From assembly GCA_025656375.1 (NCBI GenBank), contig JAHXHU010000328.1, positions 1 through 35,979 on the forward strand: a stretch of DNA of 35,979 nt, read 5' to 3'. This document shows positions 25,821 to 31,061 of this stretch, piece by piece (position 1 is the stretch's first letter; each line of letters starts with the position of its first letter). The notes under the pieces are model-generated. The model was given only the letters and a program-made list of their open reading frames with translations. It was not told the origin of the DNA and searched no databases. The position numbers were made by a program, and so were the translations under genes. The stretch is from Candidatus Thiodiazotropha sp. (ex Ustalcina ferruginea) (GTDB lineage Bacteria; Pseudomonadota; Gammaproteobacteria; Chromatiales; Chromatiaceae).

Positions 25821-26777
25821 GTGGGGAGAGAGATGAATATCGCTGCACAGGCACAAGCCTATCTTAATGACTGGATGGCAGAAAAACCGACCCCCAAGTG
25901 GTTGGAGAAACTCCTTTCAAGACAACTACCTCTGGCTGCCGCACTGCTACTGCTGTTACTGATAGGCTGGAGGATGGCGGATCTGACCTGGCGTTTGATA
26001 CCTGAACCTGAGATTCAACAACAAGTCCGTCCTCTCAGTGCCTCTAAATCTACATCCGGCAACAGAGATCCAGCCAGCACTAACCAGCTCGAAAAAGTGG
26101 CAAAACTACATCTGTTCGGTATTGCGGGTGCAACCAAACCGAAAAAGGCTATCGATAAGAAGGCACCGGATACCCGGCTAAATCTGACCCTGCACGGTGT
26201 TTTTGTATCCGCACAAACAAATAAAGGAGAAGCCATCATTGGAACCTCCGGGTCGGCGCAAAAATACTATAAGGTCGGCAGTGCGGTGATGTCGGGTGTC
26301 ACCTTACAGGCTGTGTTTGAGGATCGGGTGGTTTTATTGAGAAATGGTCAATCTGAGGTATTGCGTTTTCCTGAAATCTCTAACAAAAGTTCCCCCTCGG
26401 TTTCTAGAACCACTAGAAAATCCAAAAGTACAGTTGCCCCGGGTTCAAATGTCCCCCCAGTTTCTAGAAGAAATCTCAGCCGTTATCGAGAGATGTTGAG
26501 AAACGAGCCATTAAAAATATTTGAACATGTCCGCTTCGTGCCAGTCAGGTCGAGAGAGGGTATGAAAGGCTACCGTGTCTTACCGCAAAAGAACCGTGAG
26601 CTCTACAATCAGTTGGGTGTGCGTCCTTCCGATCTGGTGACCTCTGTCAACGGTATACCATTGTCTAATGACAAAGAGGCCATGAAACTGATTGAAAAAC
26701 TAAAAGATGCACAGTCGATACAGGTTGAGATCGTACGCAATGGCCAACCTCAATCACTCAGTTTCGATTTGAATTAG
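25821..26777 (+). CDS. gspC: Type II secretion system protein C-like (GspC/XcpP), with C-terminal PDZ-like domain
   Basis: N-terminal TM (ALLLLLLIGWRMADLTWRLI), HR-like domain (KLHLFGIAG...LTLHGVFVSAQTNKGEAIIGTSGSAQKYYKVGSAV), C-terminal RPSDLVTSVNGIPLSNDKEAMKLIEKLKDA. Confidence 0.85.
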   Translation: MGREMNIAAQAQAYLNDWMAEKPTPKWLEKLLSRQLPLAAALLLLLLIGWRMADLTWRLIPEPEIQQQVRPLSASKSTSGNRDPASTNQLEKVAKLHLFGIAGATKPKKAIDKKAPDTRLNLTLHGVFVSAQTNKGEAIIGTSGSAQKYYKVGSAVMSGVTLQAVFEDRVVLLRNGQSEVLRFPEISNKSSPSVSRTTRKSKSTVAPGSNVPPVSRRNLSRYREMLRNEPLKIFEHVRFVPVRSREGMKGYRVLPQKNRELYNQLGVRPSDLVTSVNGIPLSNDKEAMKLIEKLKDAQSIQVEIVRNGQPQSLSFDLN

Positions 26778-26821: not shown

Positions 26822-27463
26822 TTACTCATTAGGTGTTGCAGGTGGGGTAGGGCGGTTTGGCACCAGTGCAACCTCATCACCATCCTCCAAGCGAGTGAAA
26901 AATTCAGCAAACTGCTTATTGATGGTCAGTCTCAGAAGCGATTCATCAAAGACCGGGGCAATTTCATTGCGCCGATTTCTTAATAGTTTTAATAACTCCG
27001 AGATATTAGTCACGGAGGGAGGCAGCACGACTTCTTCACTCTCCTTACCGGTTTTGTTGGCCAACCAGGCGAAGTAGAAAAGTTTAATTCGCCGCACCCT
27101 ATCGACCACATCCCGACGCTCATATCCTAAAGCCTGGAGTTTTTCCAGATAGGTGTTCCAGTTCTTCTCCTTCTCGCAGCCAAGCTTGTAAAGTGTCTCC
27201 CAGGAGAAGATGCCGGTGTCGTGACCATCGTCAAATATGAGACGAATGGCATATTGACCCTGAGGTTCAATCCTCTCAATGTTCACTGACTCTTTGCCTG
27301 TAATTGGGATTTCACTTGTTTTTACTTCAGCAGCAGTGGAGAAAGCGCGTAGATATTCGCAAGGCAGTTCGAAATTGGCTCCATCGGAGAACCGGAGTGC
27401 CAGAAGACGTGACTTTTGATGTAAATTGATCTCAATCGGCGTCGGGATGGTCTCTTTCGTCAT
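26822..27463 (-). CDS. DUF971 (GBBH-like N-terminal) domain fused to a MoaD/ThiS-like beta-grasp domain lacking C-terminal Gly-Gly
   Basis: aa ~1-115 DUF971-like (RFSDGANFELPCEYLRAFSTAAEV...IRLIFDDGHDTGIFSWETLYKL); aa ~125-213 MoaD-like (IKLFYFAWLANKTGKESEEVVLPPSVTNISELLKLLRNR...LRLTINKQFAEFFTRLEDGDEVALVPNRP). Confidence 0.8.
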   Translation of the reverse strand: MTKETIPTPIEINLHQKSRLLALRFSDGANFELPCEYLRAFSTAAEVKTSEIPITGKESVNIERIEPQGQYAIRLIFDDGHDTGIFSWETLYKLGCEKEKNWNTYLEKLQALGYERRDVVDRVRRIKLFYFAWLANKTGKESEEVVLPPSVTNISELLKLLRNRRNEIAPVFDESLLRLTINKQFAEFFTRLEDGDEVALVPNRPTPPATPNE

Positions 27464-27646: not shown

Positions 27647-28528
27647 TCATGATCGAGAAATATCTCTCTGTAGATGCTCCTCAGCTCTACCATCACCCGA
27701 TACCTTTTTCAGTGCTCTGTCCATACCGCGGCTTGTCAGTATGCGTCGAAGTAGAGCGAATAGATGGGTAGGGAAGGTGACATGATAACGCGGTTTGGGT
27801 TTTCGGCTCTCCAGGGCATGAATGACCTTCTTCAACACAGCCTCGGGCGGTAGTGTAAAAGGGGCTGCAGGGCCTTTTGTTTCCAATCTTTTCTGCATTG
27901 CCTGATAGTAGGGCTGGTGTGCTGAGTGCTCTACATCAATATGTTTATGCCACATAGCCAGCGCATTAGCACGAAATCGGCTCTCAATGGGGCCAGGTTC
28001 GATCAACGATACATGAATGCCACTACCCGCTAATTCCAGACGTAATGTGTCGCTCAGACCTTCTAAAGCAAACTTGCTGGCTACGTAGGTGCCACGATAG
28101 GGAAGTGTCATAAAACCGAGTATCGAGCTGTTTTGGATAAGACGGCCCTCACCCTGTCTGCGCATCGCAGGAATAACCCTGCAGGTCAGTTGATGCCAGC
28201 CAAATAGATTGGTCTCGAACTGTTGTTTTAATACATCGCGGCTTAGATCTTCAATGGCACCAGGTTGGCCGTAGGCGCCATTATTGAATAGGGCATACAG
28301 TGCCCCGTTTGTCAGCTCCAGTACCTGATCAACGGCATGATCGATGGATTGACCATCATCGAGGTCAAGCTGTAATGCATCGAATCCCTGCTGTCGTAAG
28401 TCAGTTACATCCCGCTCCTTGCGGGCGGTGGCGAATACTCGGTATCCACGGGTTTTCAAGCCCTTGGCCACACAAAGACCAATACCGCTGGAGCAGCCGG
28501 TGATGAGAATGTTCTTCACTTCTGACAT
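27647..28528 (-). CDS. SDR family NAD(P)-dependent oxidoreductase
   Basis: NILITGCSSGIGLCVAKGLKTRGYRVFATAR; NNGAYG; YVASKFALEGLSDTLRLEL. Likely start MSEVKN at 28528 rather than 28573. Confidence 0.92.
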   Translation of the reverse strand: MSEVKNILITGCSSGIGLCVAKGLKTRGYRVFATARKERDVTDLRQQGFDALQLDLDDGQSIDHAVDQVLELTNGALYALFNNGAYGQPGAIEDLSRDVLKQQFETNLFGWHQLTCRVIPAMRRQGEGRLIQNSSILGFMTLPYRGTYVASKFALEGLSDTLRLELAGSGIHVSLIEPGPIESRFRANALAMWHKHIDVEHSAHQPYYQAMQKRLETKGPAAPFTLPPEAVLKKVIHALESRKPKPRYHVTFPTHLFALLRRILTSRGMDRALKKVSGDGRAEEHLQRDISRS

Positions 28529-28749
28529 GCTGGATAGGATACAGGATTGGGATATCAGTTGTCGTACGCCCAAACCTGTAAAAAATCATCATCATAGTGG
28601 GGTTGAGGAATTAAAGTTTGGCCCTGCCTGACCGCTAAAACAATCAGATTATAGTGGTAGAAGAGGTTTGAAGACTGACAGTGGACAGGGTTAAGTCTGG
28701 CTCCCTCATAGTCTGTAAAAACAGCAACGAGGAATCGGAGAAATAATCG

Positions 28750-29508
28750 GTGGATATTGCTACTCTGGTAGGTCTATTGGGTGGATTTGGCATTATCATC
28801 GGGGCGATCGCTTCGGGTGGTGATGTTATGTTATTCGTCAATGTCCCCTCCATATTGATCGTTGTAGGCGGCACTTTCATGGTGACGTTAATGCAAGTCT
28901 CTCTGGGCGATTTTCTCGGCTCTTTCAGCATTGGCATGAAGGCCTTTTTCTATAAAACCGATGACCCGAAGAAACTGATTGAAGAGGCGGTGGAGCTTGC
29001 TGATATCGCACGTAAGAATGGTTTGCTAGCACTCGAAGGACAGGAGATCGGTAATAATTTCCTCAAGCAAGGCATAGGCCTTTGTGTCGATGGGCATGAT
29101 CCTATGCTCGTCAACAAGCTATTGACCAAGGATATCAACTTGACCATTCAACGTCATGAAGTCGGTCAGACGATGTTCTCGAATATGGCTATCATGGTGC
29201 CAGCAATGGGAATGATTGGAACGCTGGTGGGGCTAGTGCAGATGTTGGCAAATATGTCAGATCCAGCCAGTATCGGTCCTGCCATGGCGGTGGCCCTGCT
29301 AACCACCTTGTATGGTGCGGTAATCGCCAACGCCTTTGCTCAGCCCATCTCTAACAAGCTGGCTCGTGCCAGTACCATGGAAAAGACCAATAAGTCACTG
29401 ATTATTGAAACGATATCAGGGATTCAAGAGGGTATGAACCCACGGGTTCTCGAGCAGCTGCTCAGCACCTATCTTCCGACAGGTAAACGCCCGGTACAGG
29501 AATCCTAG
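28750..29508 (+). CDS. pomA: Flagellar motor stator protein PomA (MotA family)
   Basis: GTG start; MDIATLVGLLGGFGIIIGAIASGGDVMLFVNVPSILIVVGGTFMV; PAMGMIGTLVGLVQMLANM. Confidence 0.93.
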   Translation: MDIATLVGLLGGFGIIIGAIASGGDVMLFVNVPSILIVVGGTFMVTLMQVSLGDFLGSFSIGMKAFFYKTDDPKKLIEEAVELADIARKNGLLALEGQEIGNNFLKQGIGLCVDGHDPMLVNKLLTKDINLTIQRHEVGQTMFSNMAIMVPAMGMIGTLVGLVQMLANMSDPASIGPAMAVALLTTLYGAVIANAFAQPISNKLARASTMEKTNKSLIIETISGIQEGMNPRVLEQLLSTYLPTGKRPVQES

Positions 29509-29511
29509 ACG

Positions 29512-30381
29512 ATGTCTGACGAATGTCCGAAATGTAATGCCGGCCTGCCACCCTGGTTGGCAACTTTCGCTGATCTGATGTCTTTGCTAATGTGCTTTTT
29601 TGTACTGCTGCTCTCCTTTGCCGAGATCAATGCGGTCCGCTTTAAGAAGATGCCGGACTCGATGAAGGATGCATTTGGTGTGCAGCGTGAGATTCCGGTG
29701 ATAGAGGTGGTCAAAGGTACCAGTGTCATCATGCAGGAATTCAGTCCCGGCAAGCCGGAGCCGACACCCATCAAGGAGATTCGCCAACAGACGGCTGATA
29801 TCGAGAACGAGTTGCTGGAGATAGAAGAGAAATCCCAGCAGGACCTGGATATCGATGCTGCAAAGGCGGCAATGCAGGCTGAATTGGAGCAGGAGGTCAA
29901 GGAGCAGGCATCCGAATTACAAGAGATGCTGGATAGTGAAATTGCTGATGGATTACTGGATGTGGAGACCGAAGACACTAAGATTATTATCCGTATTCAG
30001 GAGCAGGGTTCGTTTCCATCGGGGCGCGCCAATCTGAATCCGGATTTCTTTGAAGTTATTACCAAGATCACCGAGGTGATAGCCACTACCCCTGGTAAGA
30101 TAATTGTTGCCGGCCATACTGACAACATTCCCATATCCACTAGACGGTTTCGTTCCAACTGGGAACTCTCTTCAGCACGTGCAGTGACTGTCGTACATGC
30201 CATGCTGAGTAATGCGGCGCTGGATGAGAGCCGGTTTCTTATTCAAGGATATGCAGATTCGTGGCCATTGGTCGCCAACGATTCGAGTGAAAATCGGGCG
30301 CAAAACAGGCGCGTTGAGCTTGTCATTCAACGTGGAGAGGATATGGATAGCGGCGAGGTGATCAAGGCTGGTGAAGAGTGA
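29512..30381 (+). CDS. pomB: Flagellar motor stator protein PomB (MotB family, OmpA-like)
   Basis: PPWLATFADLMSLLMCFFVLLLSFAEINAVRFKKM; OmpA-like peptidoglycan-binding VAGHTDNIPISTRRFRSNWELSSARAVTVVHAML. Confidence 0.93.
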   Translation: MSDECPKCNAGLPPWLATFADLMSLLMCFFVLLLSFAEINAVRFKKMPDSMKDAFGVQREIPVIEVVKGTSVIMQEFSPGKPEPTPIKEIRQQTADIENELLEIEEKSQQDLDIDAAKAAMQAELEQEVKEQASELQEMLDSEIADGLLDVETEDTKIIIRIQEQGSFPSGRANLNPDFFEVITKITEVIATTPGKIIVAGHTDNIPISTRRFRSNWELSSARAVTVVHAMLSNAALDESRFLIQGYADSWPLVANDSSENRAQNRRVELVIQRGEDMDSGEVIKAGEE

Positions 30382-30443
30382 GCTACTATGATGTCTCTAC
30401 CCAACGTCACTACTTAGTAAGACGGAGAGAGGAGTTTTGATAG

Positions 30444-31061
30444 ATGACTAATGATGAGCCGGGTACAACCCAGGATGAACGTAGAGAGTTCTTCCGAATA
30501 GATGATTTGATTCAGGTCAGCTATCGGGTGATAACCCCAGAAGAGTTACCGGAAAGCATTGATGAACCTCTTCAAGGAGATGATCGATTAACCGTGATGA
30601 CCCGGTTGCAGACAATTAGCCAGCATCTGTCAGCCCCGCTTCATCGTATTGAGCAACGTGACCCGGATGTCGCCGATTATTTAAAGGCACTGGACGAAAA
30701 GATCAATCTTTTGGGTCAGAGTTTCCTCACCGAAGAGAAGGAGCTGTTGAATCGGCCTTCGCAGTCGGTCAATCTGAGTGCAGGTGGTCTTGCGATGGAT
30801 ATCACCGAATCGCTACAGGTGGGGGACCTGGTAGAGATTAAACTGCTGCTTTTACCCTCATATACGGGTGTACTCGCTTATGGCGAAGTGGTCGGGGTGG
30901 ATAACTCGACAGGTGGTGATGCGGCCTATCCTTTTCATATCAGGATAAATTTTTCGCTGATCCGCAACAGCGACCAAGATGCATTGATCAGACATATCAT
31001 GCGTCGTCAGGGCGAAATGTTGAGACAACGTCGAGAACAGCTGGATCAGGAGTACGATTGA
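30444..31061 (+). CDS. PilZ domain protein with large insertion between RxxxR and NxSxxG motifs
   Basis: RREFFRIDDLIQVSYRVI at aa 13-30 and SVNLSAGGLAMDI at aa 108-120. Confidence 0.85.
   Translation: MTNDEPGTTQDERREFFRIDDLIQVSYRVITPEELPESIDEPLQGDDRLTVMTRLQTISQHLSAPLHRIEQRDPDVADYLKALDEKINLLGQSFLTEEKELLNRPSQSVNLSAGGLAMDITESLQVGDLVEIKLLLLPSYTGVLAYGEVVGVDNSTGGDAAYPFHIRINFSLIRNSDQDALIRHIMRRQGEMLRQRREQLDQEYD

Follow-up and report, generated by a model that had tools for sequence, protein, structure and literature searches.

A DUF971-MoaD-like fusion protein without a Gly-Gly tail: candidate docking partner in dissimilatory sulfur oxidation

Introduction

What does a sulfur-carrier fold do once it has lost the chemistry of a carrier? 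The question is raised by a single gene of Candidatus Thiodiazotropha sp. (ex Ustalcina ferruginea), located on a stretch of 35,979 nucleotides (contig JAHXHU010000328.1) that we refer to as the window. An earlier note, made from the sequence of the window, described the gene as a fusion of a DUF971 domain to a MoaD/ThiS-like domain and suggested a docking or regulatory module linking Fe-S handling with molybdopterin or sulfur transfer. The fusion clearly illustrates how a sulfur-carrier fold can be kept after carrier chemistry is lost, and its possible setting is of wider interest: sulfite oxidation by APS reductase is a main energy pathway of sulfur-oxidizing bacteria, animal symbionts included, and the assembly and coupling of the AprM-less form of the enzyme are not settled. 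A conserved gene that, in our sample, is found only in genomes with dsrA, and that adjoins sat-aprBA in one family, lends itself to a direct test by genetics and pull-down.

Results

The fusion gene occupies positions 26822..27463 of the minus strand (stop codon 26822-26824), a strand left unstated in the earlier note; the plus strand is interrupted by stops over the same interval. The gene starts with ATG, with AAGAG a few bases upstream, and encodes 213 amino acids. Both domains were recovered by Pfam and in an AlphaFold2 model (mean pLDDT 82.9, pTM 0.68). The DUF971 (GBBH-like_N) domain, at residues 12-92 (27188..27430, minus strand), matched PF06155 over the full profile (1-85 of 85; E 2e-25; 89.8 bits against a cut-off of 22.8), and the first half of the model matched the solved DUF971 structures 2l6n, 2l6p, and 3luu. 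The MoaD/ThiS-like domain, at residues 124-202 (26858..27094, minus strand), was matched by PF02597 (ThiS) at residues 130-202 (E 4e-9, above the cut-off) and by TIGR01682 (moaD) at residues 126-202 (E 4e-10; 40.5 bits, under the curated cut-off of 66.15). Its predicted strands and helices agreed with this assignment, and the second half of the model matched the MoaD structures 6jc0, 5mpo, 1fm0, and 1jwb. By profile and by model, the second half has the beta-grasp fold. Neither a P-loop domain (Pfam domain search) nor a predicted membrane segment was found in the protein.

The protein ends VALVPNRPTPPATPNE, with PTPPATPNE at the very end and no GG. This tail, NRPTPPATPNE (residues 203-213; 26825..26857, minus strand), stands in place of PVTGG. 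The proline-rich form is kept in relatives from Thiodiazotropha and other Chromatiales and is lost or different in more distant fusions; GG was found in 0 of 47 distinct fusion tails, which upholds the earlier argument that carrier chemistry is unlikely for this protein. The separate MoaD proteins of fusion genomes end FFPPVTGG (once LFPPVTGG, once FFPPVSGG), and their ThiS proteins end GGG.

Positions F7, L59, and F75 of E. coli MoaD form the hydrophobic face that binds MoeB (E1), as in the MoeB-MoaD structure, and MoaE. The first two of these positions are kept. F131 (27071..27073, minus strand), at the F7 position, is Phe in 39 of 39 fusions and in 20 of 20 MoaD proteins; F185 (26909..26911, minus strand), at the L59 position, is Phe in 38 of 39 fusions and lies inside T(V/I)NKQFA (TVNKQFA in the window), a fusion-specific motif nearly invariant across 14 families. 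The third position is changed: V201 (26861..26863, minus strand), where F75 would stand, is Val, Thr, or Ile in 39 of 39 fusions, as compared to Phe in 20 of 20 MoaD proteins, and MoaD R11 is lost in every fusion. The docking role put forward in the earlier note fits the two kept positions.

A scan of public genomes returned 28 full-length relatives, in Ca. Thiodiazotropha, Ca. Thiosymbion, Sedimenticola, Lamprocystis, and other Gammaproteobacteria. A class sample of 369 gammaproteobacterial genomes contained 23 carriers from 14 families (two of the 23 as contig-end fragments); these counts cover matches stronger than about 2e-44, among which the weakest full-length fusion scored 1e-52, and very divergent carriers could be missed. 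No fusion retaining GG was found. Among the best 30 loci from 299 genomes across the phylum, the only DUF971 domain was the window's own, and the other loci were MoaD-like open reading frames without DUF971. An isolated truncation can be ruled out, every relative seen being without GG, as can an assembly artefact, the fusion being present in dozens of independent genomes.

Three related genes occur in the window's own genome: the fusion, a stand-alone DUF971 gene flanked by hslU and ubiE, and a canonical moaD adjoining moaE. Fusion and stand-alone DUF971 domains were split by one branch with 99/99 support, and in the beta-grasp tree a 100/97 branch set the MoaD proteins apart from the other rows. 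A single clade of fusion beta-grasp domains was not recovered as such and was not rejected either (AU p 0.21; few columns). With both trees unrooted, the simplest reading is that the fusion arose once and was afterwards inherited patchily or lost in some lineages. Purifying selection acts on both halves of the protein: in the two close pairs with measurable dS, dN/dS was 0.04-0.15 across both domains, the beta-grasp half giving about 0.04-0.07. Separately, genome G569 encodes a stand-alone 86-aa ThiS/MoaD-like protein (L143:1486-1746, minus strand) that lacks GG, ends GDEIAFIEMVAL, and carries the fusion-type TVNKQ motif; it is possibly a separated relative of the second half of the fusion.

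Within the 369-genome sample the fusion was confined to genomes bearing dsrA. All 23 carriers had dsrA, as compared to 117 of the 369 genomes overall (hypergeometric 6.7e-13), and by family the figures were 14 of 14 as compared to 59 of 181 (4.8e-8); aprA was present in 22 of 23 carriers as compared to 106 of 369 genomes (Fisher 3.9e-12), all three p-values overstating the evidence because the sampled genomes are related to one another. The co-occurrence partly reflects shared ancestry. The fusion was absent from 94 genomes with dsrA and 84 with aprA, so the pathway does not depend on it. Among the carriers, G218 lacks aprA at a rated completeness of 100%, and the only AprA of G098 and of G159 is of lineage I.

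The carriers mostly encode an AprM-less APS reductase with the charged loop CDGCKGQ[DE][KR] in its AprB subunit, the type known as SOB Apr lineage II and tied to QmoABC (PMC2211403; PMC3779200). Lineage-II AprBA without aprM was found in 20 of the 22 carriers with aprA and in 50 of the 84 other aprA genomes (p 0.004), a post hoc comparison made after the data were seen, in which lineage was called by TIGR02061 bit score, gene order and the AprB loop were checked in the loci read, and the Qmo tie comes from the literature. In five families (f1, f138, f118, f95, and f58) the carriers were lineage II and the sampled non-carriers lineage I; two families (f43 and f65) include lineage-II non-carriers, and two (f2 and f99) have carriers without lineage II. 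Just downstream of lineage-II aprBA, most loci read encode a protein of about 300 amino acids with a putative domain for chelating zinc or iron, marked by CxxCxxCC (L166-L176, L185, L066, L067, L207, and L208; PF03692 in L066, homologues elsewhere), a candidate second accessory factor of APS reductase.

Gene neighbourhoods place the fusion beside sat-aprBA in a single family. In f138 the fusion is set among sat, aprBA, and an H+-pyrophosphatase gene, with aprB 0.53-0.74 kb away in 16 of 20 fetched loci, divergent or co-directional. Among the remaining loci, the H+-pyrophosphatase gene adjoins the fusion in L209, with aprB 4.6 kb off, and in L210 and L212, with aprB absent within the stretch covered; in L211 sat lies 0.3 kb from the fusion. 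The linkage to sat-aprBA was absent from the other families read, including the window's genus and Chromatiaceae, where neighbours were unrelated.

Other neighbours were rejected as functional clues. In the window, a gene for type II secretion protein C (25821..26777, plus strand; PF11356, E 4e-33) is convergent with the fusion, and a short-chain dehydrogenase gene (27647..28573, minus strand; PF00106, E 2e-39) lies 0.18 kb upstream on the same strand; both adjoin the fusion only in near relatives. GATase, PIN/MazE, gshB, HDOD, GGDEF/EAL, and other neighbours were each confined to single lineages. Farther along the window, positions 28750-31061 hold genes of the MotA/ExbB and MotB/OmpA types with a PilZ-domain gene after them; together they may form a stator set that responds to c-di-GMP.

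Discussion

On the best-supported reading, the fusion may be a soluble, non-catalytic accessory to dissimilatory sulfur oxidation that acts by docking, with AprBA/Sat as its likeliest clients; we give this reading a probability of roughly 45%. The protein would serve the cytoplasmic pathway that runs through rDsr and ends with APS reductase and ATP sulfurylase as its last step. The DUF971 half is related to the stand-alone protein found at the hslU locus, and the beta-grasp half is a MoaD derivative in which the Gly-Gly carrier tail is lost while some of the binding face of MoaD survives. Because the tail is lost and part of the face is kept, this half would be a protein-binding module for docking or assembly rather than a sulfur carrier. 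The likeliest client would be the Qmo-type (AprM-less) APS reductase AprBA, or AprBA together with Sat, presumably bound through the beta-grasp face, and the action would lie in assembly or electron-transfer docking, not in regulation. A narrower proposal strikes us as possible rather than probable: in sulfur-oxidizing Gammaproteobacteria the fusion would be a soluble partner, not described before, of the oxidative APS reductase of Qmo type, its MoaD-derived domain having traded carrier chemistry for docking and joining AprBA, perhaps also Sat, to assembly or electron-transfer machinery. Occurrence only alongside sulfur-oxidation genes in the sample, with sat-aprBA adjoining in one family, recommends the fusion as a candidate helper of the pathway.

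Several other functions were weighed against this reading. The first is delivery of Fe-S clusters, in which the DUF971 half would pass clusters on to AprB or DsrAB, with target recognition falling to the beta-grasp half. HCF101 Fe-S carriers have DUF971 as their C-terminal domain (PMC7980591), and AprB, which holds two [4Fe-4S] clusters (PMC2211403), is encoded beside the fusion in f138. However, no full fusion open reading frame contains CxCxxC, the metal motif known from HCF101-type DUF971. N-terminal domains contain a single Cys in 42 of 49 cases and none in 4; the sole widely conserved one, C35 (27359..27361, minus strand), is Cys in 45 of the 47 fusions with a letter there. The P-loop domain is likewise missing. 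With GG lost and CxCxxC absent, GG-thiocarboxylate chemistry is therefore excluded on sequence grounds, and binding of a cluster or zinc at the CxCxxC site is unlikely. Within the link to Fe-S handling drawn in the earlier note, direct metal binding of the HCF101 kind is not supported. We consider Fe-S delivery unlikely.

A second possibility is that the fusion is a dead MoaD, its beta-grasp domain docking on MoeB (or MoaE), either as a decoy or to regulate synthesis of the molybdenum cofactor, while DUF971 senses or localises it. Retention of F131 and F185 from the MoaD face that binds E1 and MoaE suits this idea, as does the coexistence of canonical MoaD, MoaE, and MoeB with the fusion in nearly all carriers. 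In G062 and G300 (loci L081 and L082) the fusion lies directly downstream, on the same strand, of the genome's only MoeB-type gene, but both genomes belong to one genus, and no other shows the linkage. The changes at F75 and R11 also count against it. Molybdopterin oxidoreductases, rejected as a clue, occur in every fusion genome and every control genome, yet the fusion is confined to genomes with dsrA. Of the molybdopterin or sulfur link first proposed, molybdopterin as the main connection is not supported, since dsrA in 23 of 23 carriers and sat-aprBA adjoining in one family point to dissimilatory sulfur oxidation. The MoeB adjacency keeps the E1/Moco idea alive; we regard that idea as rather unlikely.

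Third, the fusion could be an adaptor for HslUV proteolysis, steering proteins of sulfur oxidation towards the protease or away from it, if stand-alone DUF971 works with HslU. The stand-alone gene adjoins hslU in 19 of 25 loci and ubiE in 21 of 25; in G000:C213 (L002) it lies between the two. The literature searched gave no function for this hslU-ubiE protein. The fusion itself was not seen in that context, however, and an action on HslUV is hypothetical even for the stand-alone protein; an adaptor role is very unlikely. Finally, a vestigial fusion with a functionless beta-grasp half accords with the missing carrier tail but is improbable in the extreme, being largely contradicted by the conserved core and fusion-specific TVNKQFA across 14 families and by the low dN/dS of that half in both measurable pairs.

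Returning to an accessory role in sulfur oxidation, neither the DUF971-MoaD fusion nor a tie between it and sulfur oxidation was found in the literature searched, beyond which lay most subscription literature, and the same search found no report of aprBA together with MoaD. The domain types are already known; the architecture and its sulfur-oxidation tie appear undescribed, as the earlier note had supposed of the architecture.

The closest known systems each share part of the fusion. The stand-alone DUF971 protein (hslU-DUF971-ubiE; PDB 2l6p, 2l6n; also 3luu) has the same fold and occurs in the same genomes, and the copy in the window's genome shares 46% identity with the first half of the fusion; it differs in having no beta-grasp domain, in lying on the opposite side of the 99/99 branch, and in its hslU-ubiE context. 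MoaD, the small subunit of molybdopterin synthase, shares the beta-grasp fold, the F7/L59 face, the GDEVA strand, and 34% identity (to the MoaD of the same genome); unlike MoaD, the fusion has no GG, has F75 and R11 changed, scores under the curated MoaD cut-off, and has DUF971 attached. HCF101-type carriers (FSCA-ParA-DUF971) share DUF971, but the fusion lacks ParA, FSCA, and the CxCxxC of their DUF971, and has another partner domain. RnfH, TmoB, and the Ub-like domains fused to Mut7-C (Iyer 2006, PMC1779556), among other beta-grasp proteins, resemble the fusion in using a MoaD/ubiquitin-like fold outside sulfur carriage; they are separate families, and a DUF971 fusion was not found in the passages of that survey consulted. 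AprM, the membrane partner of lineage-I APS reductase, is like the fusion an accessory gene adjoining aprBA in sulfur oxidizers; but AprM sits in the membrane and is encoded at lineage-I loci, whereas the fusion belongs to another family, is predicted to be free of membrane segments, and lies beside lineage-II aprBA.
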